Assembly: GCA_005889495.1 (NCBI GenBank)
Contig: VBHA01000173.1
Location: forward strand, 1 to 35,372
Length of the DNA: 35,372 bases
Direction: 5' to 3'
Source: Chloroflexota bacterium
GTDB lineage: Bacteria; Chloroflexota; Dormibacteria; Dormibacterales; Dormibacteraceae
Shown: positions 20,521 to 32,113 of the stretch, in pieces
Layout of the letters: each line of letters starts with the position of its first letter
Numbering within the stretch: position 1 is the stretch's first letter
Program-made: the position numbers and the translations under genes
Notes under the pieces: generated by a model
Seen by the model: the letters and a program-made list of their open reading frames with translations, nothing else
Told to the model about the DNA's origin: nothing
Databases searched by the model: none

Positions 20521-20861
20521 AGGTCGACGAGCTCCGAGTCCTCGAACCCGATGAGCTCGGCGTCCGCCTGCGCACCGCGCGCCGCGAGCTCTACGAGCTG
20601 CGCTTCAAGCACGCGGTCGGCCAGCTGGAGAACTCGAGCCAGATCTCGAAGGTCCGGCATGACATCGCCCGCATCATGACCGTGCTTCGCGAGCGCGACT
20701 TCGGGATCTTCCCCGCGGTCGAGGAGCCCTCCGCCCCAGAGACTGGGGAGGTGGCCGCGGTAGCGGCCGGCGGGGCTGTGGCTGTTCAGCCAGACGCCGA
20801 GGCTGAAGAAGAGCCGAAACCAAAGCGCCGCGGGCGCGCCAAGAAGGAGGAGGCTGAGTGA
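20517..20861 (+). CDS. rpmC: 50S ribosomal protein L29 with an extension containing a palindromic element
   Basis: L29 sits beside L23 at the exit tunnel. The product has 114 residues, of which about 1-66 are the normal two-helix L29 ([52 protein letters not shown]). The remaining 48 residues are Ala/Glu/Lys-rich. Residues 73-87 ([15 protein letters not shown]) are encoded by a copy of the double-hairpin repeat at 20734-20777. Start ATG 20517 overlaps the rplP stop (ATGA) and the stop overlaps rpsQ (GTGA). Confidence 0.93.
20734..20777 (+). repeat. Double-hairpin palindromic element, copy 1 (in rpmC)
   Basis: Hairpin 1: CCCCA (20734-20738) with TGGGG (20744-20748). Linker AGGT. Hairpin 2: GGCCGC (20753-20758), loop GGTA, GCGGCC (20763-20768). 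Tail GGCGGGGCT. It shares layout and core sequence with copies at 24681, 26731 and 31387; stem bases differ from those copies but remain paired. Confidence 0.75.
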
Positions 20862-21157
20862 GCGACACCGCCACAGCGACGCCCACGACCTCTACGGAGA
20901 CGGAGACACGCGGCCGGCGCAAGGTCCGCCTCGGCACCGTGATCAGCGACAAGATGGACAAGACCGTCATCGTCCAGGTCGGCTCCTCGAAGGCCCACCG
21001 CCTGTACCGCAAGACGGTCCAGCAGCGCGCGCGTTTCAAGGTCCACGACCCCAAGAACGAGTGCGGTGTCGGCGACCTCGTCCGCATCACCGAGACGCGG
21101 CCCATCTCCAAGGAGAAGCGCTGGCGCGTGCTCGAGATCGTGGAAAAGGCGCGATAG
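20858..21157 (+). CDS. rpsQ: 30S ribosomal protein S17
   Basis: Primary 16S-binding protein with an OB fold, 99 residues. [20 protein letters not shown] and [20 protein letters not shown] are the family motifs. The first 17 residues are a Thr-rich extension. GTG 20858 overlaps the rpmC stop and follows the strong site AAGGAGGAGG. Confidence 0.95.
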
Positions 21158-21158
21158 C

Positions 21159-21527
21159 GTGGTCCAGCAAGAGACCCGGGTCAAGGTCGCGGACAACTCA
21201 GGAGCGAAGGAGCTCCTGGTCATCCGCGTGGCCGGCGGCCACTACCGCAAGTACGCCTACGTCGGCGACATCATCACCGCCACGGTCAAGTCCGCCCAGC
21301 CGGGTGGGCAGGTGAAGAAGGGTGAGGTCGTCAAGGCCGTCGTGGTCCGGGTCAACAAGGAGTACAAGCGTCCGGACGGCTCGCTGATCCGCTTCGACGA
21401 GAACGCCGCCGTCCTCCTCGCCGCCGCCAACAACCCGCGCGGCACCCGTATCTTCGGACCGGTCGCCCGCGAGCTGCGCGAGCGCAACTTCATGAAGATC
21501 ATCTCGCTCGCCCCGGAGGTCCTGTAA
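21159..21527 (+). CDS. rplN: 50S ribosomal protein L14
   Basis: Protein at the intersubunit bridge region, 122 residues, the exact family length from GTG 21159. [20 protein letters not shown] starts it and [20 protein letters not shown] precedes the ISLAPEVL end. A longer upstream frame overlaps rpsQ and has no L14 homology. One base separates it from rpsQ. Confidence 0.97.
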
Positions 21528-21534
21528 CCGAAAG

Positions 21535-21921
21535 ATGCTTAGAAACAAACCCGAGCTGAAGCGCCGCTGGCTCGACCTCGCCCCTGGCGATCCCGTGATC
21601 GTCATCGCGGGCAAGGACAAGGGCAAGCAGGGCGAAGTTCTGCGCACCATCCCCGACCAGCACCGGATCGTGGTCAAGGGCGTCAACATCCTCAAGCGCC
21701 ACAGCAAGGCCGGTCAGCGCCGCGGCGGCGTCCAGGTCGCGCAGGGCGGGATCGTCGACTTCGAGGCGCCCCTCGACTACTCCAACGTGATGCTCGTCTG
21801 CCCGTCCTGCGGGCGGCCCACGCGCACCAAGCACATCGTGCTCGAGTCCGGCGCGCGCGCGCTGGTCTGCCGCCACTGCGGCGAACCGTACGAGCGCGTG
21901 CGCAAGACGGAGGCGCAGTAG
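21535..21921 (+). CDS. rplX: 50S ribosomal protein L24
   Basis: Assembly-initiating 23S-binding protein, 128 residues. The KOW motif [17 protein letters not shown] and [11 protein letters not shown] are present. The C-terminus has CPSCGRPTR and CRHCGEPYE, two CxxC pairs that probably bind zinc as in many Gram-positive L24 proteins. ATG 21535 is seven bases after rplN; the TAG shares one base with the rplE GTG. Confidence 0.95.
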
Positions 21922-22532
21922 TGGCCAAAGCCAAGCAGCAGCCCAAGAAGGAGGCCGCCCCGAAGGCTCCCGGCACGAGGTCGGAGGCACCCCCGCGCAT
22001 GCTCCAGACCTACCGGGACACCATCACGGCGCAGCTGACCAAGGAGTTCGACTACGCCAACGTCATGCAGGTGCCCCGCGTCGACAAGGTCGTCGTCAAC
22101 GTCGGCATCGGCGAGGCCAAGGACAGCGACAAGGCCCTCGACGCCGCGGTCGGCGACATCACCACGATCACCGGGCAGAAGCCGCAGCTGATCAAGGCGA
22201 AGAAGTCGGTGGCCGCGTTCAAGCTTCGGGCCGGCCAGACGGTCGGCATCAAGACGACGCTGCGCGGCCGGCGCATGTGGTACTTCCTGGACAAGCTGCT
22301 GAACATCGCCCTGCCTCGCATCCGCGACTTTCGCGGCGTGAGCCCGGACGGATTCGATGGCCGCGGCAACTACTCGCTCGGACTGCGCGAGCAGGTCGTG
22401 TTCCCGGAGATCGACTACGACAAGATCGACAAGCTTCGCGGGCTCGAGGTGAGCATCATCACGACCGCCCGCTCCGACGACGAGGCACGCAGCCTCCTGA
22501 CCCGGCTCGGGATGCCGTTTAGAAAGAGATGA
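21921..22532 (+). CDS. rplE: 50S ribosomal protein L5
   Basis: 5S rRNA-binding protein of the central protuberance, 203 residues. The family body starts at [20 protein letters not shown] and continues with [38 protein letters not shown] and [19 protein letters not shown]. Before it lie 26 Lys/Ala/Pro-rich residues when GTG 21921 is used; an internal ATG near 21999 would give a normal-length protein. GTG 21921 is preferred for its coupling to rplX. Confidence 0.95.
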
Positions 22533-22544
22533 AGAGGTAGGAGT

Positions 22545-22739
22545 TTGGCCAAGAAATCATCGATCGAGCGCTGGAAGCGAGACCTTGCCGCGCCCAAGTT
22601 CAAGGTGCGTTTTCACAATCGCTGCCGCATCTGCGGGCGTTCTCGCGCGTACCTGCGCAAGTTCGGCATGTGCCGCATCTGCTTCAGAACCAACGCCGCC
22701 GAGGGTCGCATCCCGGGTGTGACGAAGTCGAGCTGGTGA
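22545..22739 (+). CDS. rpsN: 30S ribosomal protein S14, zinc-binding type Z
   Basis: Short zinc-type S14 of the 30S head, 64 residues. [20 protein letters not shown] provides the two CxxC zinc pairs, followed by the family end GVTKSSW. The type-Z form is usual in Gram-positive and thermophilic lineages. TTG 22545 follows AGGTAGGAG. The TGA overlaps the rpsH ATG by one base. Confidence 0.96.
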
Positions 22740-23194
22740 TGATGATGGCCACAGCAGTGAAGACACCGACCAAAACCGCCAGGAAGGCGCCCGCCGGCAT
22801 CGTCAGCGACCCCATCGCCGACATGCTGACGCGGATCCGCAACGCCAACGCCGCGCGCCACGCCGAGGTTAAGGTGCCGGCCTCCAGGCTCAAGCTCGAG
22901 ATCGCCCGCGTCCTCAAGGACGAGGGCTACATCGCCGGCTACGACGTCGAGGCCGACGGCACGACGCAGACGATGCGTATCATCTTCAAGTCCCGCCCTG
23001 ATCGCACCCGCGTGATCTCGGGCGTGAAGAGGATCAGCCGCCCCGGACTGCGCGTCTACGCGCGCAAGACCGAGATCCCGAGGGTCCTCGGCGGCCTCGG
23101 CATCGCCATCCTCAGCACGGCTGAGGGAGTCATGAGCGGAAGGCAGGCGCAGCGCCAGGGCTTCGGCGGCGAAGTGCTGGCGTACGTCTGGTAG
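22739..23194 (+). CDS. rpsH: 30S ribosomal protein S8
   Basis: 16S-binding protein of the platform, 151 residues. [19 protein letters not shown] begins the domain and [20 protein letters not shown], then VLAYVW, ends it. Three consecutive ATG codons (22739, 22742, 22745) start the gene; the first overlaps the rpsN stop. About 20 Thr/Ala/Lys residues precede the conserved part. The frame open further upstream belongs to no S8 sequence. Confidence 0.95.
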
Positions 23195-23205
23195 GAGCAG
23201 AAGAG

Positions 23206-23760
23206 TTGTCGCGAATCGGAAAGCTGCCGGTCCAGGTGCCCAAGAACGTGAAGGTCACCCTGGCGCCGGGAAAGGTCGCGGTCGAGGGGCCAAGGGGCCG
23301 GCTGGAACGCACCCTGCCGGCGGACATCACGGTCAAGCAGTCCGACGGCGAGCTCGTGTTCGAGCGGCCGTCCGACGACTTCCGCCACCGGGCGCTCCAC
23401 GGCCTGGTCCGCAGCCTGGTCGCGAACATGGTCGAAGGCGTGGACAAGGGCTTCACGAAGAACCTCGAGCTGGTCGGCGTCGGCTACCGCGTCGCCAAGC
23501 AGGGCGAGGAGCTCGTGCTGAACCTCGGCTTCTCGCACCCGATCCGTTTCAAGCCACCCCAGGGGGTCTCGATCGAGGTCCAGGACCCGACCAAGTTCTC
23601 GGTCAACGGCATCTCGATCGAGGACGTCGGCCAGGTCGCCGCCAACATCCGCGGCATGCGGCCACCCGAGCCCTACAAGGGCAAAGGCGTCAGGTACCGG
23701 GATGAAAAGGTCCGGCGCAAGGCGGGCAAGGCCGGCAAGGGCGCAAAGGCCACCGCATGA
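23206..23760 (+). CDS. rplF: 50S ribosomal protein L6
   Basis: Two-domain protein near the factor-binding site, 184 residues. [29 protein letters not shown] and the C-terminal [20 protein letters not shown] are diagnostic. Start is TTG 23206 after TAGGAG. The TGA overlaps the rplR ATG by four bases. Confidence 0.96.
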
Positions 23761-24110
23761 TCAAGCGACAGGACCGGAAGGTGAACCGCAGCAAGCGTCA
23801 CAGGCGAGTGCGAGTGCATGTCGCCGGCACGCCCGAGCGGCCTCGCCTCGCCGTGTTCCGCAGCCTCAACCACGTGTACGCGCAGCTCATCGACGACGGT
23901 GCGATGCGCACGCTTGCCGCCGCGTCGACGGTGGAGATGAAGGCGAAAGGCAACGGCGTGGCCCAGGCGGCGGAGGTAGGCAAGGCGATCGCCGCCAAGG
24001 CCAAAGCAGCCGGGGTCAACAGCGTGGTGTTCGACCGCGGCGGCTTTCTCTACCACGGAAGGATCAAGGCGCTGGCCGATGCCGCGCGCGAAGCTGGATT
24101 GGAGTTTTAA
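23757..24110 (+). CDS. rplR: 50S ribosomal protein L18
   Basis: 5S rRNA-binding protein, 117 residues. [20 protein letters not shown], then YAQLIDD, and the C-terminal [20 protein letters not shown], then EAGLEF, are typical. The TAA is followed directly by the rpsE GTG with no gap. Confidence 0.96.
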
Positions 24111-24731
24111 GTGTCTAGAAACATGGGCGGCCGATATGGCGGCGATCGTGGCGAGCGCTCCGAGCTCGCCGACCGCGTCGTCCGCGTCAACCGCGTGGCC
24201 AAGGTGGTCAAGGGCGGACGCAAGTTCTCGTTCAGCGCGCTCATCGTGGTCGGCGACATGAACGGCCGCGTCGGCGCCGGCATCGGCAAGGCGCGCGAGG
24301 TGACCGAGGCCATCCGCAAAGGGATGGAGGTCGCGAAGCGAAACATGATCACCGTGCCGATGGTCGGAACCACGATCCCGCACGCGGTCGAGTACAAGTG
24401 GGGCGCCGCGCGGATCATGCTCAAGCCCGCCGCGCCGGGCACGGGCGTCATCTCCGGCGGCGCGATGCGGGCCGTGATCGAGACCGCCGGGATCAAGGAC
24501 ATCCTCACCAAGTCGCACGGCACCAACAACCCCATCAACACCGTGCGCGCGACGCTCGCCGCCTTGCAGACCTTGAAGACCGCGTCCCAGGTCGCGGAGC
24601 TGCGAGGCAAGGAAGTCGAGCAGATGGTCGGCAAGCGGCTGGCCGCGGCCTACAGAGGGCAAGAGCCGGTGGCCTCCGCACCGCAGAGTGGGGAAGTGGC
24701 GCCGGTAGGCGCCGGAGGGGCTCGTGCCTGA
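24111..24731 (+). CDS. rpsE: 30S ribosomal protein S5 ending in a palindromic-element peptide
   Basis: Fidelity and assembly protein of the 30S body, 206 residues. The RNA-binding domain has [18 protein letters not shown] and [18 protein letters not shown], then [19 protein letters not shown]; the second domain ends near [10 protein letters not shown]. The last 17 residues ([17 protein letters not shown]) come from the double-hairpin element at 24681-24722 and are not part of the family. GTG 24111 abuts the rplR stop. The end overlaps rpmD by eight bases. Confidence 0.95.
24681..24722 (+). repeat. Double-hairpin palindromic element, copy 2 (end of rpsE)
   Basis: Hairpin 1: CCGCA (24681-24685) with TGGGG (24689-24693), one mismatch. 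Linker AAGT. Hairpin 2: GGCGCC (24698-24703), loop GGTA, GGCGCC (24708-24713). Tail GGAGGGGCT (24714-24722). The tail's GGAGG lies five bases before the rpmD GTG and appears to be its ribosome site. Confidence 0.75.
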
Positions 24732-24984
24732 CAAAACCCTCAAGGCCACTCTGATGAAAAGCGCGATCGGCGCCCGGCCGGAGATCCGCGCCACCGTCGA
24801 ATCGCTTGGCTTCCGGCGCATGAACCAGACGCGCGAGCTGCCGGACAACGACGCGGTGCGCGGCATGCTCCGGCGCGTGAGCTTCCTCGTCGCGGTCGAA
24901 GGCGAGCCGTGGGAGCGGCCGAAGCGCAGCCAGTACAAGATCTGGCGCGCTCGCAGCAACAAGAAGCACCAGAGGGGCCACTAG
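24724..24984 (+). CDS. rpmD: 50S ribosomal protein L30 with C-terminal extension
   Basis: 86 residues; the first about 58 are a normal L30 ([49 protein letters not shown]). About 28 basic and aromatic residues follow ([18 protein letters not shown]). Bacterial L30 is usually near 60 residues. GTG 24724 overlaps rpsE; the ribosome site GGAGG comes from the palindromic element. Confidence 0.93.
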
Positions 24985-24988
24985 CTCG

Positions 24989-25507
24989 ATGCAGCTCCAC
25001 GACCTGAAGCCCGCACCCGGCTCGCGGCGCCGTCCCCAGCGCATCGGCCGCGGCACCGGGTCCGGCCGGGGCAAGACGTCCGGCCGCGGCCAGAAGGGCC
25101 AGAACGCGCGCAGCGAGGGCTTTCGACTCGGCTTCGAAGGCGGGCAGATGCCGCTGTCTCAGCGCCTCCCCAAGCTGCCCGGCTTCAAGAACCCGTTCAA
25201 GAAGATCTACACGGTGGTCAACGTCTCCAAGCTCAGCCGCTTCCAGGACGGCGCGAAGGTCGACGCCGAGGCGCTGGTCCAGGCCGGCCTGGCGCGAGGA
25301 GGCGTCCAGATCAAGATTTTGGGCGCCGGCAAGATCAAGCGCAAACTGGCCGTGGAGACGCATGCGATCAGCAACAGCGCGCGTGAGGCGATCGAGAAGG
25401 CCGGCGGGTCGGTGACCGTGCTGAACCAGAAGCCAGAACAAGAAGAACAGGAAGAAGAAACGAAGCCTGACAGCGAGTCTCCCCCAAAGGATCAGGAAAT
25501 CGAGTAA
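24989..25507 (+). CDS. rplO: 50S ribosomal protein L15
   Basis: Late-assembly 50S protein, 172 residues. MQLHDLKPAPGSRRRPQRIG, TSGRGQKGQNARS and GFEGGQMPLSQRLPKLPGFK are diagnostic. The last 25 residues form an extra Glu/Gln-rich acidic tail. ATG 24989 lies four bases after rpmD; secY follows after three bases. Confidence 0.96.
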   Translation: MQLHDLKPAPGSRRRPQRIGRGTGSGRGKTSGRGQKGQNARSEGFRLGFEGGQMPLSQRLPKLPGFKNPFKKIYTVVNVSKLSRFQDGAKVDAEALVQAGLARGGVQIKILGAGKIKRKLAVETHAISNSAREAIEKAGGSVTVLNQKPEQEEQEEETKPDSESPPKDQEIE

Positions 25508-25510
25508 CCG

Positions 25511-26706
25511 ATGAACCTCCTCGAGGCGCTCATCAACGCGATCCGGCTGCCGGAGCTCCGCAACAAGATCCTGTTCACGGGCGGCATCCTCGTCGTGTTC
25601 CGCTTGTTCGCCAACATCGCCATCCCCGAGGCCAACAAGACCGCGCTCGGCCTCCTCTTCAACCAGCAGGCCCTGCTCGGTCTGCTCGACCTCTTCTCGG
25701 GCGGCGGCCTGTCGCGGTTCAGCATCGTCGCGATGGGCATGAACCCCTACATCAACGCCACCATCATCATGCAGCTCATGACCGTGATCTCCGAGCGCAT
25801 CAAGGAGATCCAGAAAGAGGGCGAGATGGGTCGCCGGCGCATCCAGCGATGGAGCCGCTACCTCACGGTGGCCCTCGGGGCCGGCCAGGCGTACGGGTTC
25901 ACGGTCACGGTGTCTCGTTGATCATCTTCGCGGGCATCATCGGCCGCGGACCGCAGGGCGTCACGGCCGTGTTCGGCGCCCACACCACCGGCGGCGGTCT
26001 GGCCGACTACGTCCCCTTCATCATCTTCGGCCTCATCGCGCTGGGCATGACCGCGGTGATCATCGAGGTCCAGCAGGCCGTGAGGAAGATCCCGATCCAG
26101 TCGGCGCAGCGTGTCGCGGGCGGGCGCGAGGTGGGGCGGAGGGCGAGCTTCCTGCCGCTGCGCGTCAACCACGCGGGCGTGATCCCGATCATCTTCGCGA
26201 TCTCGGTGATGTTCTTACCGACCATCATCGCCAACTACTTCACCGGCGCGCCGCCGAACACCTGGTACTACAACGCCGCCGCGTGGGTGCGAGGCAACTT
26301 CTCGCCGAGCACGCCCAACGTCCCCATGGCGATCACTTACAACGCGCTCTACTTCCTCTTCACGTTCGGCTTCACGTACTTCTACACGGCGATCACGTTC
26401 GACGTGAACGACGTGGCCGACAACCTTAAACGCTATTCCAGCTTCATCCCGGGAATCCGCCCGGGACGTCCGACCGCGGACTACCTGCAGGCGGTGATGA
26501 ACCGGGTCACGTTCGTGGGCGCGATCTTCCTCGGGTTCATAACTGTCATCCTGCCCATCGCCACGTCCAAGATCTCCGGGATCAACCAGCAGCAGATGTA
26601 CCTGGGTGGCACCGCCATCCTGATCGTCGTCGGCGTCGCGCTGGACACGATGAAGCAGCTGCAGACGCAGCTGGTAATGCGCCAGTACCGCGGCTTCATC
26701 AAATGA
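25511..26706 (+). pseudogene. secY: secY, frameshifted with loss of the fourth transmembrane region
   Basis: SecY is the channel subunit of the Sec translocon. Here it is in two frames. 25511-25921 encodes the N-terminal part: MNLLEALINAIRLPELRNKI, GLLDLFSGGGLSRFSIVAMG, NPYINATIIMQLMTVI, then GQAYGFTVTV followed by SR and a stop. The rest, from SLIIFAGIIGRGP to the end RQYRGFIK, continues from about 25915 in another frame. Family members have about 45-60 residues between these parts, including the TM4 segment with (M)WLGExITxRGIGNG; these are missing, and the net loss is 3n+1 bases. Upstream ACGGTG at 25906-25911 matches the bases expected in the lost GNGVS codons, suggesting a microhomology deletion. 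Either an assembly error or a dead copy, since secY is essential. Confidence 0.88.
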
Positions 26707-26783
26707 ACCTGGTGTTGTACAGCTCTTCCTCTTCCCCATTCATGGGGAAGTACCCGGCGAAGCCGGGGGATGGGGCCCGATGA
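26703..26783 (+). CDS. 26-codon ORF before adk, remnant of the original adk start
   Basis: ATG 26703 overlaps the secY stop (ATGA), the usual spacing in this operon, and encodes MNLVLYS, nearly the first residues of Adk (MNLLLYG). After seven codons the reading runs into the palindromic element in another phase and ends at TGA 26781-26783, which overlaps the real adk ATG (ATGA). It may be translated and carry ribosomes from secY to adk. I infer it is the displaced 5' end of adk, not a functional peptide gene. Confidence 0.45.
   Translation: MNLVLYSSSSSPFMGKYPAKPGDGAR
26731..26776 (+). repeat. Double-hairpin palindromic element, copy 3 (before adk)
   Basis: Hairpin 1: CTTCCCC (26731-26737), loop ATTCAT, GGGGAAG (26744-26750). 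Hairpin 2: CCCGGC (26753-26758), loop GAA, GCCGGG (26762-26767). Tail GGATGGGGC. Both stems are perfect. It lies between imperfect 21-base direct repeats of the adk start (26703-26723 and 26780-26800, 16 of 21 identical). Confidence 0.8.
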
Positions 26784-27418
26784 ACCTCCTCCTGTACGGC
26801 GCCCCCGGTAGTGGCAAGGGGACCCAGGCCAACATGCTGCGCTCGCACTTCGGCATCCCGCACATCGCCACCGGCGACATGCTGCGCGCCGAGATCGCGG
26901 CCGGCACGCCGCTTGGCAGGCAGGCGCAGCCCATCCTCGCGGCCGGCAAGTACGTCTCCGACGACATCATGATCGAGGTCGTCCGCGGCCGCCTCGGCCG
27001 GCCCGACTGCGAACCAGGCTTCATCATGGACGGCTTCCCGCGCACCGTTCCCCAGGCCGTGGCCCTCGACGGCCTGATGGCCGACCTTGGCAAGCGCTTT
27101 GACCGGGTCATCTACCTCGAAGTACCGGTCGATGAGCTCCTGCACCGCCTCTCGGGCCGCCTGGTCTGCCCCCAGTGCCAGCGCACGTACCCGCCTCAGA
27201 CGAGCGCGTGCGAGGCCGACGGCAGCGAGCTTGCGCAGCGCGAGGACGACAAGCCGGAGGCCGTGCGGCCGAGGATCGAGATCTACCTCGAGAAGACGGT
27301 CCCGGTCCTCGACCACTACCGAGGCGGGGGCCTGGTTTCCGAGATCGACGGCCGGGGGACAATCGAAGACATAAGCCGCCAGGTGCTGGCGGCCGCCAAC
27401 GGGAAAGTCAGAGCATGA
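26780..27418 (+). CDS. adk: Adenylate kinase
   Basis: Interconverts ATP + AMP and 2 ADP, 212 residues. The P-loop GAPGSGKGTQ is at 7-16, the AMP-binding ATGDMLRAEI at 30-39 and DGFPRT at 84-89. The long LID domain carries a zinc site C130, C133, C144 and D147, the three-Cys/one-Asp pattern of Gram-positive enzymes. The frame is open upstream through the palindromic element but has no start codon there, so ATG 26780 is used. The tail GGATGGGG is a weak ribosome site. The stop overlaps the map ATG (ATGA). Confidence 0.96.
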   Translation: MNLLLYGAPGSGKGTQANMLRSHFGIPHIATGDMLRAEIAAGTPLGRQAQPILAAGKYVSDDIMIEVVRGRLGRPDCEPGFIMDGFPRTVPQAVALDGLMADLGKRFDRVIYLEVPVDELLHRLSGRLVCPQCQRTYPPQTSACEADGSELAQREDDKPEAVRPRIEIYLEKTVPVLDHYRGGGLVSEIDGRGTIEDISRQVLAAANGKVRA

Positions 27419-28170
27419 TCAACCTCAAAACCGCCCATGAGATAGACCTGATGGCTCGTGCCGGAACGCTGCTCGCGTCGGTGCTCCCTCCTCTCAAGGA
27501 GGCGTGCCGGCCAGGGGTCAAGACGGCCGAGCTCGACCGCATCGCCGACAGGCTGATCCGGGCCGGCGGGGCCACCCCCGGCTTCCTGGGCTACCACGGC
27601 TTCCCCAAATCGATCTGCGTGTCCATCAACGACGAAGCGGTGCACGGGATCCCGGGGAGCCGGAAGATCGCCGAGGGCGACCTGGTGAGCCTCGACCTCG
27701 GGTTGGTCCTGGAGGGTTTCTGGGCCGACGTCGGGATCACGGTCGGGGTGGGCAAGATCACTCCGGAGGCCGCCCGCCTGCTGAAGGTCACCGAGCAGGC
27801 CCTGTACATCGGCATCGACAAGGCCCGGCCGGGCGGCCACCTGGGCGACATCTCGGCCGCGATCCAGAAGCACGTCGAGAGCAACGGCTTCTCGGTCATC
27901 CGCCAGTTCGTGGGCCACGGCATCGGCCGCCAGATGCACGAGGACCCCCAGGTGCCCAACTTCGGCACCCCCGGGACCCCGCCCAGGCTCAAGCCCGGGA
28001 TGACCCTGGCGATCGAGCCCATGGTCAACGCCGGCACCCACGACGTGTACATGAAGCCGGACGGGTGGACGATCTGCACCGCCGACGGTGCCCTGTCCGC
28101 CTATTTTGAGCACACCGTCGCTATCACGGAAAAGGGGCCTGTCGTGCTCACCAAAGGGGCCCTGGACTGA
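27415..28170 (+). CDS. map: Methionine aminopeptidase, type I
   Basis: Removes the initiator methionine from nascent proteins, 251 residues. The five metal ligands are present: D94, D105, H168, E201 and E232, along with substrate-pocket H77 and H175. Motifs: [39 protein letters not shown] and FEHTVAI. No N-terminal SH3-binding zinc extension, so subclass Ia. Coupled to adk by a four-base overlap. Confidence 0.96.
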
Positions 28171-28188
28171 ACTCGAGCCAGCCTTTGG

Positions 28189-28194
28189 TATACT
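28189..28194 (+). promoter_or_regulatory. -10 element TATACT for a leaderless infA transcript
   Basis: TATACT ends eight bases before the GTG start at 28203, so the message would begin at or next to that codon. No Shine-Dalgarno sequence is seen. The surrounding TTTGGTATACTCGC closely matches the rpsL promoter (TTGGGTATACTCAT at 11334-11347). A weak CTGAAC at 28167-28172 is the best -35 candidate. Confidence 0.45.
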
Positions 28195-28202
28195 CGCGTT
28201 TC

Positions 28203-28418
28203 GTGCCCCAACGCCCCCCACTCGTGAAGGGGGTCGTGGTGGAGCCTCTTCCCAATGGTGTCTATCGGGTCGAGCTCGAGAACGGGGCCAAGGTCCTCGC
28301 TCACGTCGCCGATCGTGCGGGCACCCATTTCACCCGGCTTCTGGCCGGAGACAAGGTGGGGGTCGAGCTCGCGACCAGCGACCGATCGCGGGGACGAATT
28401 CGAGAGATTTGGAGATGA
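28203..28418 (+). CDS. infA: Translation initiation factor IF-1
   Basis: OB-fold factor that occupies the 30S A site during initiation, 71 residues. [40 protein letters not shown], then [19 protein letters not shown], follow the family. The usual SGKMR before the H(Y/F)xRxL segment is replaced by DRAGT, a small divergence in the rRNA-binding loop. GTG 28203 gives the family length; a TTG at 28185 in the same frame lies inside the promoter. The stop overlaps rpmJ. Confidence 0.92.
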
Positions 28419-28531
28419 AGGTACGTCCGTCGGTCAAGAAGATGTGTCCGAGCTGCCGTGTGATCAAGCGCAACGGGGTGGTCCGCGTGATCTGCTCCAA
28501 GACGCCAAAGCACAAGCAGCGCCAGGGTTAG
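28415..28531 (+). CDS. rpmJ: 50S ribosomal protein L36
   Basis: Smallest 50S protein, 38 residues. [20 protein letters not shown] and [14 protein letters not shown] contain the zinc ligands C11, C14, C27 and H33. ATG 28415 overlaps the infA stop (ATGA) and follows TTTGGAG. The zinc-binding form agrees with the zinc-type S14. Confidence 0.95.
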
Positions 28532-28539
28532 GAGAGTAG

Positions 28540-28938
28540 ATGGCGAGAATCGCCGGCGTCGACATACCTCCGTCCAAGCGCGTCATCGTGTCGCTGACGT
28601 ACATCCACGGCATCGGCGACACGACCGCGAAAAAGATCCTCAAGCTGGCCAACATCGACGGCAACAAGCGGACCAAGGACCTGCCGGAAGACGAGGTCGC
28701 CCGGCTCCGCCAGGCCATCGACCGCCTCGCCAGCGCCAAGGACATCCTGATCGAAGGCGACCTCCGACGCGAGGTCGCGATGAACATCAAGCGGCTGACC
28801 GAGATCGGCTCGTACCGCGGCCAGCGGCACCGCCGCGGCCTCCCCGTCCGTGGCCAGCGCACGCGCACCAACGCGCGCAGCCGGCGCGGGCCCAAGCGCG
28901 CGGTCGCGGGCAAGAAGAAGGTCAAGGCGGGCAAGTAG
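28540..28938 (+). CDS. rpsM: 30S ribosomal protein S13
   Basis: Head protein forming bridges to the 50S subunit, 132 residues. [20 protein letters not shown], then GIG, and the C-terminal [20 protein letters not shown] are typical. ATG 28540 follows TTAGGAGAG. The TAG shares one base with the rpsK GTG. Confidence 0.97.
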
Positions 28939-29330
28939 TGACCAAGAAGAAGGTCGTCCGCACCCGGCGCCGCGAGCGCAAGAACGTGGTCAACGGGCAG
29001 GCTCACATCCAGAGCACGTTCAACAACACGATCATCTCGATCAGCGACGTCGACGGCAACGTCATCGCCTGGGGCTCCGCGGGCGCGCAGGGCTTCAAGG
29101 GCAGCCGGAAGTCGACGCCGTTCGCCGCGCAGACGACCGCCGAGACGACCGCCAAGAAGGCGCTCGAGCACGGCATGCGCTCGATCGAGGTGTTCGTCCG
29201 TGGGCCCGGCGCAGGCCGGGAGGCGGCGATCCGCTCGCTGCAGGCCACCGGGCTGGAGGTCAGCGCGATCACCGACGTGACCCCGATCCCGCACAACGGG
29301 TGCCGCCCACCCAAGCGGCGGAGGGTTTAG
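28938..29330 (+). CDS. rpsK: 30S ribosomal protein S11
   Basis: Platform protein lining the E-site mRNA path, 130 residues. [20 protein letters not shown], then [10 protein letters not shown], and [18 protein letters not shown] are diagnostic. GTG 28938 overlaps the rpsM stop by one base. Confidence 0.97.
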
Positions 29331-29333
29331 CGC

Positions 29334-29954
29334 ATGGCCAACTACAGCGGCCCGGTCTGCCGCTTCTGCCGCCGCGAGGGCGCCAAGCTCTACCTCAAGG
29401 GCGAGCGCTGCTACACGCCGAAGTGCGCCATCGAGCGCCGCGCGTTCGCGCCCGGCATGCACGGCCAGGCGCGGAAGCGCAAGACGTCGGACTACGGCCT
29501 GCAGCTGCGCGCGAAGCAGAAGGCTCGCCGCATCTACGGCCTGCTCGAGAAGCAGTTCCGCAACTACTTCGACCAGGCGTCCAACGAACCGGGCGTGACA
29601 GGACTGAACCTGCTCCGCCACCTCGAGCTGCGCCTCGACAACGTGGTCTACCGGATCGGGCTGGGCAGCTCGCGCAAGCAGGCTCGCCAGCTCGTGACGC
29701 ACCGCCACTTCGAGGTGAACGGCAAGCTCGTGAACGTACCGTCCTTCCAGGTGAAGCCCGGCGACGAGCTCAAGGTGAAGGGTTCGGACGGCGTTTTCGA
29801 CGTGGTGCTGGAGGCGTCCAAGGTGCGCCCGGTGCCCTCATGGCTTTCCTTCAACACGGACGAAAAGTCCGCCAAGATCCTCGCCCGCCCCGAGCGCCAC
29901 GAGATGGAGTCCGGGGTCGAGGAACAGTTGATCGTCGAGTTCTATTCACGGTAG
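29334..29954 (+). CDS. rpsD: 30S ribosomal protein S4, zinc-containing form
   Basis: 16S assembly initiator, 206 residues. The N-terminus has a four-Cys zinc site: VCRFCRR and RCYTPKCAIERR. The S4 RNA-binding domain reads RLDNVVYRIGLGSSRKQARQ, then LVTHRHFEVNGKLV. Ends with the common VEEQLIVEFYSR. ATG 29334 is three bases after rpsK. Confidence 0.97.
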   Translation: MANYSGPVCRFCRREGAKLYLKGERCYTPKCAIERRAFAPGMHGQARKRKTSDYGLQLRAKQKARRIYGLLEKQFRNYFDQASNEPGVTGLNLLRHLELRLDNVVYRIGLGSSRKQARQLVTHRHFEVNGKLVNVPSFQVKPGDELKVKGSDGVFDVVLEASKVRPVPSWLSFNTDEKSAKILARPERHEMESGVEEQLIVEFYSR

Positions 29955-29974
29955 TCGGAGGTAATTGATCCCAG

Positions 29975-30943
29975 TTGGCAATTGACACGCAGATGACTGT
30001 GACCCCCCAGGTCCGCAAGCTCGAGACGAGCGCGAACTACGGCAAGTTCGACATCGAGCCCCTCGACCCGGGGTTTGGCACGACGCTCGGCAACACGCTG
30101 CGCCGCGTGCTGCTGTCTTCGCTGTGGGGCGCGGCGGTCACCTCGATCCAGATCGACGGTGTCGCCCACGAGTTCACCGCGATCCCGCACGTCAAGGAAG
30201 ACGTGACCGAGGTGATCCTCAACCTGAAGAAGCTTCGCTTGAAGGCCTTCACGGACGACCCGATCACGCTCACGCTCGACGTCAAGGGGCCCGCCGACGT
30301 GCGCGCGTCGCACATCCAGGCCACCTCCGACGTGGAGATCGTCAACCCTGACCTGTACATCTGCACGCTCGCGGCCAAGGGCCACCTGCGGATGGAGCTC
30401 AACGTCGAGAAGGGCAAGGGCTACGTCCCGGCCGAGCGCAACAAGCGCGAGGGCCAGCCGATCGGGGTGATCCCGATCGACTCGATCTTCTCCCCCGTGG
30501 AGAAGGCGAACTTCGTCGTCGAGAAGACCCGTGTCGGCCAGTCGACGGACTACGACAAGCTCATCATCGAGGTCTGGACCGACGGGACGATGTCGCCCGA
30601 GGAGGCGGTCAGCCACTCGGCCGAGCTCTTCACGCAGCACCTCAGCCTGTTCGTCGGCTTCAACGCGGCGATCCAGAAGCACGAGCAGGAGTTGCGCGGC
30701 GAGAAGACAGGCCAGAACCGGCTGATGGACACGCCCATCGAGGAGCTGGACCTGTCGGTCCGGGCGTTCAACTGCCTCAAGGCGAACGAGATCCAGACTG
30801 TCGGCCAGCTCCTGCAGAAGCGCGAGGAAGAGCTCCTGGCGCTGCGCAACTTCGGCCGCAAGTCGCTGGATGAGATCAAGGAGAAGCTCGTCGAGAAGGG
30901 CTTCATCAAGCCCGAAGAGATGGGCACGGTCCTGCGCGGCTAG
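29975..30943 (+). CDS. rpoA: DNA-directed RNA polymerase subunit alpha
   Basis: Scaffold subunit of RNA polymerase, 322 residues. The N-terminal dimer domain has LDPGFGTTLGNTLRRVLLSS; the C-terminal DNA-binding domain has LSVRAFNCLKANEIQTVGQL and LRNFGRKSLDEIKEKL. TTG 29975 is chosen as start with GGAGG about 13 bases upstream; ATG 29993 is the alternative. Length is normal. rplQ follows after nine bases. Confidence 0.97.
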   Translation: MAIDTQMTVTPQVRKLETSANYGKFDIEPLDPGFGTTLGNTLRRVLLSSLWGAAVTSIQIDGVAHEFTAIPHVKEDVTEVILNLKKLRLKAFTDDPITLTLDVKGPADVRASHIQATSDVEIVNPDLYICTLAAKGHLRMELNVEKGKGYVPAERNKREGQPIGVIPIDSIFSPVEKANFVVEKTRVGQSTDYDKLIIEVWTDGTMSPEEAVSHSAELFTQHLSLFVGFNAAIQKHEQELRGEKTGQNRLMDTPIEELDLSVRAFNCLKANEIQTVGQLLQKREEELLALRNFGRKSLDEIKEKLVEKGFIKPEEMGTVLRG

Positions 30944-30952
30944 AGGGACCGA

Positions 30953-31312
30953 TTGCGACATCAGAAGAGCGGCCGCCACTTCAACCGCGACACCGACGCC
31001 CGCAAGGCGTTGATGCGCAACCTCTGCACGTCGCTGCTCGAGAGCCCGAGCGGACGAATCACCACGACCGAGGCGCGCGCCAAGGAGCTTCGGCGATGGG
31101 TCGAGAGGCTGATCACGACGGCCAAGGACGGCGACGTCAACGCCCGGCGCCGCGTGAGCCAGGAGATCTCGAAGCCGGAGGTGGTGGAGAGGCTGTTCGC
31201 CAACCTCGTGCCGCGCCTGGCGGAGCGGCCGGGCGGCTACACGCGAATCATCCACAAGGGCCCGCGATTGGGCGACGCGGCGCCGATGGTGATCATCGAA
31301 CTCGTCGATTAA
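30953..31312 (+). CDS. rplQ: 50S ribosomal protein L17
   Basis: Exit-tunnel rim protein, 119 residues. RHQKSGRHFNRDTDARKALM, then RNL, and GRITTTEARAKELRRWVERL are diagnostic; the end GGYTRIIHKGPRLGDAAPMV, then IIELVD, is complete. TTG 30953 follows the AGAGGG at the rpoA stop. Confidence 0.96.
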   Translation: MRHQKSGRHFNRDTDARKALMRNLCTSLLESPSGRITTTEARAKELRRWVERLITTAKDGDVNARRRVSQEISKPEVVERLFANLVPRLAERPGGYTRIIHKGPRLGDAAPMVIIELVD

Positions 31313-31330
31313 CAACTGAATATAAAAGTC

Positions 31331-32113
31331 GTGCTGGAGTACGACGGGTCGAGCTTCGCCGGCTGGCAGCTTCAACGGAAAAAGGTCCTCCCCATTCATG
31401 GGGAGGTGGCCCGAAGGGCCGGAGGGGCTGGGCCGGAGGAACAGGGGCTGCGGACGGTGGAGGGAGAGCTTCGGAACGCCTTGCGCTCGATCACCGGCCA
31501 GGAGCTCGTGGTCTACGCCGCGGGCCGCACCGACGCGGGCGCGCACGCTGAAGGCCAGGTGGCGAGCTTCCACACTGACGGGCGCATAGCGCCTCGCCGC
31601 CTGGTGGCGGCGCTCAACGCCCGCCTCCCGGCGGACGTCGCCGTGCTCTCGGCTGAAGAGGTGCCGGAAGGATTCCACGCCCGTTACTCGGCTCGCTGGC
31701 GGCGGTACCGGTACCGCTACCTGGACCGCCCGGCCAGGCCGGCCCTCGACCGGGGGCGGTGCTGGCACGTGCGGTCGGCCCTGGACGTGGAGGCGATGGC
31801 GGCGGCGGCGGGCGCCTTGGTCGGCAAGCACGACTGGACCAGCTACTGCTCGGCCTCCGAGCCGGAGCGCGATCGGGTGCGCGAGATGCGCTCCGCCCGC
31901 GTCGCGCGGCGAGGGGAGTTCGTCGAGCTGGAGCTGGTCGCGGAGGGCTTCCTGCGGGGCCTGGTGCGCAGCCTCGCGGGCGCACTGGCCGAGGTGGGCC
32001 GCGGTGAGCGGCCGCCGGAGTGGGTGGGAAAGGTCCTTCGAGCGCGGGACCGCCGGCAGGCGCCGCGCACGGCGCCCGCGGGAGGGCTGACCTTGATGGA
32101 AGTGATTTACTAG
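31331..32113 (+). CDS. truA: tRNA pseudouridine(38-40) synthase with an inserted palindromic element
   Basis: Modifies U38-U40 of tRNA anticodon arms. GTG 31331 gives 260 residues; the catalytic Asp is D68 in AGRTDAGAHA. Other landmarks: VLEYDGSSFAGWQLQ at the start, FHARYSARWRRYRYRYLD, FLRGLVRSLAGAL. After WQLQ (11-15) about 22 residues (RKKVLPIHGEVARRAGGAGP and the next two) interrupt the family sequence before QGLRTVEGEL; 15 of them are the double-hairpin element. The family usually has about five more residues at the N-terminus (NIKVV is encoded upstream in frame), so a CTG at 31316 may be the true start. Confidence 0.93.
   Translation: MLEYDGSSFAGWQLQRKKVLPIHGEVARRAGGAGPEEQGLRTVEGELRNALRSITGQELVVYAAGRTDAGAHAEGQVASFHTDGRIAPRRLVAALNARLPADVAVLSAEEVPEGFHARYSARWRRYRYRYLDRPARPALDRGRCWHVRSALDVEAMAAAAGALVGKHDWTSYCSASEPERDRVREMRSARVARRGEFVELELVAEGFLRGLVRSLAGALAEVGRGERPPEWVGKVLRARDRRQAPRTAPAGGLTLMEVIY
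31387..31429 (+). repeat. Double-hairpin palindromic element, copy 4 (inside truA)
   Basis: Hairpin 1: CCTCCCC (31387-31393), loop ATTCAT, GGGGAGG (31400-31406). Hairpin 2: GGCCC (31408-31412), loop GAA, GGGCC (31416-31420). Tail GGAGGGGCT (31421-31429). It shares the 14-base core CCCCATTCATGGGG exactly with copy 3. Inserted in frame, so truA stays open. Confidence 0.85.

Follow-up and report, generated by a model that had tools for sequence, protein, structure and literature searches.

Short structured repeats of bacterial genomes include triplex motifs, palindromic elements inserted in genes, and hairpin-based REPs. The class II triplex motifs (PIT, TM-ECO), as presented in the available text of PMC4666352, have Y-R-R blocks with the third, purine block mirrored, G placed on G and A or T on A, seven triplets, and many copies. 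These features are shared by the element described here, which was recognized in the genome of a soil bacterium (Chloroflexota, Dormibacteraceae). The second loop of the element, composed of a T and a hairpin (hairpin 2), is 14–20 nt, in contrast to 1–6 nt in the class II motif (ITxF) according to the same text, and it exceeds the 0–10 nt limit of Hoyne as reported there. Because the second loop is beyond published limits, the element is filed as a variant of the triplex motif, not as a member of the published set. TM-ECO is described in that text as always intergenic in E. coli, whereas the element is also intragenic. The canonical short-loop triplex form was found at 1–25 copies in 15 of 16 genus relatives, with 0 exact copies in the own genome.

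Rickettsia palindromic elements (RPEs) are similar to the element in behaviour: both insert in frame in conserved, essential genes, and one phase is preferred. RPEs are about 84–150 bp in the available descriptions while the element is about 45 bp, and unlike Rickettsia RPEs the element has two hairpins and a mirror-image tail and resides in a different phylum. The GTAG/CGTC REPs (Di Nocera et al. 2013, PMC3733652) are, in the available text, short, hairpin-based and cross-phylum, and sometimes found in genes and inside other palindromes, as is the element; unlike these REPs, the element lacks both the GTAG and the CGTC tag, and no Y1 transposase was found in the genus. The Caulobacter CIR, from Alphaproteobacteria (PMC2229807), also consists of two hairpin arms and a linker. 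The accessible part of that report gives about 110 bp, a GANTC motif, stops in all frames and no intragenic location for CIR. Identity with CIR was rejected on the length of the element, its intragenic copies and the absence of GANTC from its consensus.

The window is the whole stretch of 35,372 nucleotides of contig VBHA01000173.1 (assembly GCA_005889495.1). The original prediction had placed four copies of a double-hairpin palindrome in it, and the four copies, with their stem-2 pairs and loops, were confirmed, all on the + strand and all with the order Y arm, loop, R arm, T, hairpin 2, and tail. Copy 1 (20730..20776) is located in the 3′ tail of rpmC (ribosomal protein L29; 20517..20861, +), with the Y arm at 20731–20737, the R arm at 20745–20751 followed by T, hairpin 2 at 20753–20768 (GGCCGC GGTA GCGGCC), and the tail GGCGGGG at 20769–20775. 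It codes for residues 72–88, in the C-terminal tail past the L29 domain (Pfam PF00831, residues 5–60). Copy 2 (24675..24721) lies in the C-terminal tail of rpsE (ribosomal protein S5; 24111..24731, +; Pfam PF00333 and PF03719, with the end of PF03719 at residue 165) and codes for residues 189–205, with the Y arm at 24676–24682, the R arm at 24690–24696, hairpin 2 at 24698–24713 (GGCGCC GGTA GGCGCC), and the tail GGAGGGG at 24714–24720. This tail stops 3 nt upstream of the GTG (24724) of the next ORF, for which it could be a candidate ribosome-binding site. Copy 3 (26730..26776), at the secY-adk junction and inside neither gene, has the Y arm CTTCCCC (26731–26737), the R arm GGGGAAG (26744–26750), hairpin 2 at 26753–26767 (CCCGGC GAA GCCGGG), and the tail GGATGGGG at 26768–26775. 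Copy 4 (31386..31430), near the truA N-terminus, has the Y arm CCTCCCC (31387–31393), the loop ATTCAT, the R arm GGGGAGG (31400–31406) and T, hairpin 2 at 31408–31420 (GGCCC GAA GGGCC), and the tail GGAGGGG (31421–31427), next to which is CTG. It belongs to a 22-codon insertion in truA (31385..31450, +), which by eye comprises the element and a ragged second copy of its right half.

A covariance model was built from 32 sequences, among them all four window copies. It scored these copies at 73 (truA), 49.7 (rpmC), 42.1 and 40.3 bits, and the corresponding window E-values (2e-17, 2.4e-11, 2.4e-9 and 7e-9) are partly by construction, since the copies are in the training set. Two further patterns each matched one window copy (secY-adk and truA, respectively) and had 0 matches in 100 shuffles. 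The proposal of one shared design holds in that all four copies are of one family, but the secY-adk copy is a distinct subtype, B (GGGGAAGTA...GGATGGGG), and the proposed common tail varies among copies 1–4 (GGCGGGG, GGAGGGG, GGATGGGG, GGAGGGG). The three coding copies share one phase (GGG GAG GTG), as predicted. Only over the part running from GGGG arm to tail do they differ in length by multiples of three (24, 24 and 21 nt); over the whole element they differ by 4, since their 5′ loops measure 7, 7 and 6 nt. Stem 1 is perfect in the truA copy and mismatched in the rpsE (CCGCACC/GGGGAAG) and rpmC (CCGCCCC/GGGGAGG) copies, which to judge from sequence are old, decaying, and partly common to relatives.

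The element is probably mobile and non-coding, a repeat some 45 nt long with the layout T-CCTCCCC-loop-GGGGAGG-T-(palindromic hairpin)-GGAGGGG-C(A/T)G. In agreement with the expectation of further copies in the genome, a strict pattern, which picks up only the rpsE and truA copies among the four in the window, had 66 matches in the draft genome versus 2 for the reversed pattern. The covariance model gave at least 146 matches at E ≤ 0.1 (150 of 5873 candidates scored), and in 72 own-genome stretches chosen for their matches, 123 non-overlapping model matches formed 98 clusters, which hold direct and partial copies. The element ends are uniform across copies: T 5′ of CCTCCCC and C 3′ of the tail, neither being part of the search pattern, are present in 62/62 copies. 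The bases 3′ of GT vary (GTGGC, GTGTC, GTGCC, GTACC). The predicted compensated stem changes were recovered as a covariation of stem pairs of 0.223 against 0.063 in shuffles; the Y arm stays complementary to the R arm, and stem 2 is compensated yet highly variable. Since these compensations occur between copies, the element appears to be copied as a structure. This was one half of the earlier explanation; the other half, selection on the fold, is not supported for genes, where stem 1 is being lost from the copies in rpsE and rpmC. Reading frames are open in 5 of 6 cases in the consensus and in 4–6 in each of 62 copies, and the element is tolerable in genes because most frames across it are open.

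The pattern was present in all 16 genus relatives searched, at 1–95 copies, of which the lowest value, 1, is the control level. All genus genomes are incomplete draft MAGs, and the own genome is 86.7% complete. Close forms of the element were found in Alphaproteobacteria, where similar repeats had been suggested in the original prediction, and in Bacillota and Deinococcota, while the truA copy had no match in E. coli genomes at E ≤ 0.01.

The element occupies orthologous sites which are empty in relatives, in line with the predicted RPE-like in-frame insertion. In alignment and DNA, the TruA insertion is missing in 18 of 19 aligned relatives, and the remaining one, G005, carries a different copy. 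The own genome and G005 are sisters in a tree whose supports are not shown, and a single event may therefore underlie both of their TruA inserts. In the Ffh GTPase domain, 19 of 20 aligned relatives have no clear element, and G016 carries another copy at this loop. Element-like inserts, recognized by eye and differing in sequence and frame, are present in the Fpg loop of the own genome and 7 of 15 relatives, and absent in 8. The secY-adk junction, also compared by eye, contains four kinds of element in 9 of 13 genus relatives, and in the remaining 4 the stop and start codons overlap. The rpmC C-terminal tail is element-free by eye in 9 of the 12 genus relatives having rpmC, and the covariance model detected an element in the other 3.

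Flank codon bias alone called only 5 of 98 clusters "inside" and missed TruA; this criterion being too strict, ORF scores and Pfam were used on 20 chosen ORFs, which give examples of intragenic copies and not their count. In-frame ORFs with Pfam matches were GltB, AddA-like, prolyl oligopeptidase (two copies), Ffh, DnaX, E2, Fpg, LysE-like, PHP-like, TruA, RpsE and RpmC, and element peptides were seen in the translations of all of them except LysE-like, such as VLPIHGEVARR in TruA and VLPIHGEVARSAGG in Ffh. Pfam gave no match for one ORF of the 20 (L104). The GEV phase is used by 8 of 10 same-strand copies among these ORFs.

Copies are also nested in the hairpin-2 apex of another copy, in 9 unique cases. 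In the own genome, 6 of 59 have both outer halves, compared with 2.2 expected for independent halves (p 0.0015). Beyond the own genome nesting is rare: it was found in 1 of 131 elements, to which comes the secY-adk case of G004 and G013, where a second element splits the copy at hairpin 2, while the copy in G011 is uninterrupted. The outer stems are reduced to only 2–3 pairs in 2 of the 9 nested cases.

The reading as a double hairpin stands for the two hairpins, but it missed the tail, whose mirror symmetry suggests a fold of three strands. The tail reads GGAGGGG, the purine arm GGGGAGG in mirror order, and over 339 elements the mean tail match is 0.887 to mirror(R), 0.709 to R and 0.211 to Y. 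Among copies at loci fetched by rpsE or ffh, independent of the element, 24 of 28 have a mirror tail, defined as a 60% match at the best of five offsets. In these 24 tails, and conditioned on passing, G is faced by G in 137/137 positions and A by A or T in 30/31 (A 14, T 16, C 1). Elements with the R arm GGGGAAG behave similarly (53/55 pass; G faces G in 259/265, and A or T faces A in 104/106), while 37/48 of those with other R arms pass, C facing 13/73 A positions. Permuting tails among elements still gives a mean match of 0.832 against the observed 0.887 (0.722 against 0.779 for arms other than GGGGAGG), since the set consists of few subfamilies, which perhaps share an ancestor; the observed values were reached by 0/1000 permutations. 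The rpsE and rpmC copies depart in places from the mirror rule. The facing-base rule, G on G and A/T on A, reads as the code of an antiparallel purine triplex, and with the mirror tail it makes the element look like a class II intrastrand triplex motif. We infer that the single-stranded element would fold as a class II (Y-R-R) fold-back triplex. In the available text of PMC4666352, the short-loop relative TM formed a triplex in vitro, and Holder et al. 2015 describe the short-loop motif as being without support for a stable triplex in vivo.

The four G-tracts flanking hairpin 2 could instead form a two-tetrad G-quadruplex, but this is unlikely: a quadruplex needs neither a tail mirroring the arm nor A/T opposite A, the tails match mirror(R) better than R itself, and the Y arm is maintained complementary to R. 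That the element is ordinary conserved, G+C-rich protein sequence is hardly conceivable; its peptides are Gly/Ala/Pro-rich, like these ribosomal protein tails, but orthologues without the insert refute this explanation, and the same DNA is present outside genes.

The transposase families searched were Y1 (PF01797) and IS110 (PF01548), and no mobilising gene was found in these searches of draft MAGs, which can lose multi-copy transposons. The RAYT-like transposase sought in the original prediction was not recovered: PF01797 was found in 0 of 17 genus genomes (all incomplete drafts), 2 of 61 genomes searched and 5 of 14 control genomes. A REP/REPIN-type repeat mobilized in trans by a Y1 tyrosine transposase (RAYT or TIRYT) would share the size, the hairpin, the GT before the second stem, the many copies and the lack of visible target duplication, and known REPs are also inside genes (available text of PMC3733652). 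It is nevertheless an improbable identity, given the absence of PF01797 from these drafts, the missing GTAG and CGTC tags and the varying bases after GT. G027 has 11 Y1 matches, yet its five fetched Y1 loci contain no element, and in this genome the loose pattern had 2 matches (control 1) and the tighter pattern none. A weak element-like match adjoining an IS200/IS605 tnpA on a Streptomyces plasmid is a 33-nt partial match without Y arm or tail and was judged coincidental. The uniform ends would suit a MITE derived from a conventional DDE or DEDD (IS110-like) transposon, and insertion in apices recalls insertion sequences targeting REPs (accessible part of PMC1525189). This origin is unlikely as well. 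No terminal inverted repeats or target duplications were seen by eye, among few clean filled/empty pairs with ends uncertain by 2–3 bases. IS110 was rejected as mover because its presence fails to track copy number: PF01548 was found in only 4 of 17 genus genomes, including the element-poorest G003 and G014, and not in the own genome. Spread without any transposase, by template switching or slippage at stalled forks with the triplex itself causal, is a possible but rather doubtful route. The sequence is structure-prone, clusters hold direct and partial copies, and stem 2 is compensated but highly variable, as palindrome correction by template switching would make it; triplex motifs are also tied to instability in the available text of PMC4666352. 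The uniform ends and the spread of copies over unrelated genes speak for a precise event, which slippage would not readily produce.

In the fold-back triplex reading, the element exposed as a single strand would fold with the mirror tail lying along the purine arm of stem 1 in antiparallel orientation and hairpin 2 as connector. The folded strand would be the form copied and inserted, without target duplication, probably at single-stranded DNA in replication or repair, and a Y1/RAYT or IS110 enzyme encoded in the same genome is an unlikely mobilising factor. Where the element lies at an operon junction, its GGAGGGG tail could also serve for ribosome binding. It is tentatively proposed, as a view that may well prove wrong, that fold-back triplexes capped by a hairpin form a cross-phylum class of transposable DNA in their own right, in which a three-stranded single-strand fold is recognized and moved without a dedicated host transposase, its own apex is a preferred target, and in-frame entry repeatedly builds loops into core proteins (Ffh, Fpg, TruA, S5).

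The element links in-frame protein palindromes, known chiefly from Rickettsia and as REPs in some genes elsewhere, with intrastrand triplex motifs. In the open-access literature searched, the two fields were not found joined, the spread of triplex motifs is left unexplained, and neither six consensus strings nor a hairpin-loop triplex repeat was found. The triplex as unit of mobility, if true, would be a concrete reason for the high copy numbers of these motifs. With sites that are empty, filled or decayed, the genes ffh, fpg, truA, rpsE and rpmC offer a natural series on loop uptake by essential proteins, for which the element would supply ready-made in-frame loops and tails. In structure models, the inserts of TruA (residues 15–38) and Ffh (163–176) have pLDDT below 50, and other segments are also low; such low-confidence inserts in otherwise largely folded models are compatible with flexible loops.

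The four copies of a palindromic element proposed in the window, in rpmC (20730..20776), rpsE (24675..24721), at the secY-adk junction (26730..26776, subtype B) and in truA (31386..31430), all on the forward strand, were borne out by direct reading of the sequence and by scores of 73, 49.7, 42.1 and 40.3 bits with a covariance model trained on 32 copies, these four among them. The draft genome, in which the window is contig C42, comprises 2.73 Mb in 201 contigs and is 86.7% complete. Further copies were found in it: the strict, model-free pattern GGGGARGT-N8-22-GGAGGGG gives 66 matches versus 2 for the reversed pattern, and the model gives at least 146 matches at E ≤ 0.1 (150 of 5873 candidates scored). 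From 72 stretches of this genome selected for holding hits (586 kb, window included), 137 matches were obtained at E ≤ 0.001, or 123 without overlaps, in 98 clusters. The compensated stems were also confirmed; covariation of both stems across copies is 0.223 versus 0.063 in shuffles and 0.021–0.059 with partners slid, and the second hairpin (stem 2) keeps 5–7 pairs (G-T allowed) and a 3-nt loop in 56/62 copies despite high sequence variability. The 3′ trinucleotide is CAG in 32/62 and CTG in 19/62 own-genome copies. Locus L089:4069-4395, with four model matches within about 330 bp and the identical 17-nt stem GTCGGGC-GTA-GCCCGAC in three of them, is a local burst of one subtype.

The tail GGAGGGG is the mirror image of the purine arm (R, GGGGAGG) and is not complementary to the 5′ pyrimidine arm (Y). 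A scan blind to the tail, based on the Y arm, the complementary R arm and the adjacent hairpin, returned 339 elements, whose tails agree with the mirror of R to 0.887, with R itself to 0.709 and with Y to 0.211 (highest of five offsets in each case). Permuting the tails between elements still left a mirror match of 0.832, and the observed value was reached in 0/1000 permutations; the 91 elements whose arm is not GGGGAGG gave 0.779 observed versus 0.722 permuted, reached in 0/1000. As the tail was part of the patterns used to fetch many of the loci, the analysis was repeated on loci fetched solely by rpsE or ffh, where 24/28 elements show a mirror match of ≥60%. Within those 24, selected by this cut, G is faced by G at 137/137 positions, and A is faced by A at 14, T at 16 and C at 1. 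Elements with the R arm GGGGAAG pass in 53/55 cases (G 259/265, A or T 104/106); their usual tail, GATGGGG, was in no fetch pattern, though the model weighed tails. Other R arms follow the rule more weakly, with 37/48 passing and C facing 13/73 A positions. No double hairpin arose in five 2-base block shuffles of the unbiased rpsE/ffh loci. The mirror rule holds in the main subfamilies. In the purine-motif triplex code, G is placed on G-C and A or T on A-T, antiparallel. The Y, R, R order of the element is that of class II, and its base pattern suggests that it would form a triplex.

A related design has been described. Class II intrastrand triplex motifs rich in G/C were reported from more than 260 genomes by Holder et al. 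2015 (PMC4666352), with the Escherichia coli consensus CCCTCNCCC-N3-6-GGGNGAGGG-N3-GGGNGAGGG. According to that study, the short-loop motifs fold into triplexes in vitro, a stable triplex in vivo is without support, and the motifs of E. coli K-12 are always intergenic; loops are 1–6 nt by search design, and the authors found no link to mobile elements. The present element shares this design, whereas its second loop is itself a palindromic hairpin, so the published loop limits would not return it. The short-loop motif (type D here) is present in 1 to 25 copies in 15/16 genus relatives, and exact matches number 0 in the own genome and 0 in G001, as though it had given way there to the hairpin-loop form. 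The GTAG and CGTC REPs, some within genes, were described by Di Nocera et al. 2013, where RPE-4 and RPE-6 of Rickettsia conorii are equated with CGTC REPs (PMC3733652); neither tag is present in the element. The closest in behaviour are the Rickettsia palindromic elements (PMC10969869, PMC3767692, PMC2229807).

Insertion of the element is shown by orthologous sites that are empty in relatives. In an alignment of 20 TruA proteins, leaving out G023, whose TruA was found in two pieces, the window protein carries a 22-residue insert; 18/19 relatives have no insert, and in G005 the site is taken by a different copy. A 12-protein tree places the own genome and G005 as sisters, so the two inserts may stem from a single ancestral event with later change or from two insertions. 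The own Ffh (SRP54 GTPase) contains VLPIHGEVARSAGGAAGGPAGGAAGRA within its GTPase domain, and G016 has VLPIHGDVARSAGG in the same loop; PEGRWGSAGG in G011 may be a remnant, and no element was seen in the others of the 20 aligned relatives (the alignment leaves out G002, class-level genomes and G004, in which the sole match was an element peptide elsewhere). The own Fpg carries an insert of about 41 residues; in the same loop, by eye, 7/15 relatives have element-like inserts that differ in sequence, orientation and frame, and 8 have none.

At the secY-adk junction, an element was recognized by eye in 9/13 genus relatives having both genes, of four kinds: A (CCTCCCC/GGGGAGG), B (CTTCCCC/GGGGAAG), C (GGTGGGG tail) and D (short-loop). 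In 4/13 the secY stop overlaps the adk start. The subtype B copy of the window is whole in G011, but in G004 and G013 a type A element interrupts its hairpin 2. The secY gene of the window (25511-26706) looks frameshifted in the assembly, with two overlapping ORFs (25511-25921 and 25849-26706), likely an assembly error. The rpsE and rpmC tail copies are older: element-like tails in various states of decay are seen by eye at rpsE in roughly ten of 16 genus relatives (8/16 confirmed by the model), and at rpmC in three of 12 by eye and by the model.

In-frame copies were judged by open frames, codon scores and Pfam in 20 chosen ORFs of the own genome. Among them are copies in GltB, an AddA-like helicase-nuclease, Ffh, Fpg, a LysE-like transporter, a PHP-like protein, TruA, RpsE and RpmC, and between domains of DnaX. 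In a prolyl oligopeptidase, two tandem copies make a 22-residue repeat between its domains, and in an E2 acyltransferase a head-to-head pair (L061:4975-5100) is the in-frame linker between the lipoyl and E3-binding domains. The element is not confined to genes, as many clusters are intergenic or uncertain; 53/98 have no coding signal on either side in a strict test. The GEV phase (GGG GAG GTG) is used by 8/10 same-strand copies found by pattern in the chosen ORFs (p 0.003 at one in three), and by 5/7 without the window copies (p 0.045). In the consensus none of the three same-strand frames contains a stop and one opposite frame does, and 4–6 frames are open in individual copies; open frames alone therefore do not dictate this phase. 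The tail GGAGGGG of the rpsE copy ends 3 nt before the GTG of the next ORF, L30-like by eye (region 24714-24726), and similar tails precede the adk starts in G005 and G009. Through its tail the element may supply ribosome-binding sites.

In nine unique cases a full element sits where a second element would have its stem-2 loop. Six of them are from the own genome, G004 and G013 each contribute one at the secY-adk junction, and the ninth is from another MAG. The outer half-stems are clearly complementary in seven (two by eye), with 2–3 pairs left in two. Both outer halves occur in 6/59 own-genome elements versus 2.2 expected from independent halves (p 0.0015), and they pair better than shuffled partners (31 versus 23.5 pairs, p 0.02); among elements from other loci, only 1/131 has both. 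The 3′ end is CAG in 8/9 nested cases, and no target duplication was seen at them.

The element is thus dispersed and inserted, tolerated in frame, and nested in some genomes. For its movement, an undetected transposase is one of two rival explanations; the original prediction had suggested looking for a RAYT-like enzyme, and no Y1 gene (PF01797) was found in 17 genus genomes, while an IS110 enzyme does not fit as the mover. Slippage at stalled forks is the other. The uniform ends, the lack of visible target duplications and the insertion at hairpin apices fit a single-strand intermediate, and these traits, together with the missing Y1 gene and the IS110 misfit, favour a structure-recognised, single-strand route. 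By this route the element would move through some factor, probably without a dedicated enzyme.

The strict pattern is present in 16/16 genus relatives searched, from 1 (G014) to 95 (G016) matches; G014 and G003 (7) are near the control counts of 0–2. The rest of the family is patchy (G022 37, G023 38, G033 18, G035 10, others 0–3). Beyond the family, numbers stay near the control level, G045 having two clear copies. In a sample of 301 genomes from across the phylum, which includes the own genome, 32 match a tighter pattern. The extended form was found, among the matches listed (80 loci), in MAGs named 'Chloroflexi bacterium isolate CF_...' and one 'Candidatus Dormiibacterota'. The similar repeats that the original prediction placed in some Alphaproteobacteria do exist as close forms in Hyphomicrobiales, Azospirillum, Pleomorphomonas and Rhizobium. 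A Hyphomicrobiales plasmid carries CCTCCCCATTCATGGGGAGGTGGCGCGCAGCGCCGGTGGGG, 93% identical over 44 of the 45 nt of the consensus, with two model matches only in its 802 kb. Azospirillum (17 records), Pleomorphomonas and Rhizobium plasmids, a Vescimonas (Bacillota) record and a Deinococcus plasmid hold forms 86–91% like related queries. The mirror relation is kept in the Pleomorphomonas (GGGGAAGG, tail GGAAGGGG), Rhizobium (GGGGAGGG, tail GGGAGGGG) and Deinococcus forms, and is only partial in those of Azospirillum and Vescimonas. The core pattern occurs in 31 IMG/VR stretches. One of the viral contigs, L300 (IMG/VR 2643221584, 8 kb), has four elements between ORFs that look, by eye, like the terminase, portal and capsid genes of a gene transfer agent.
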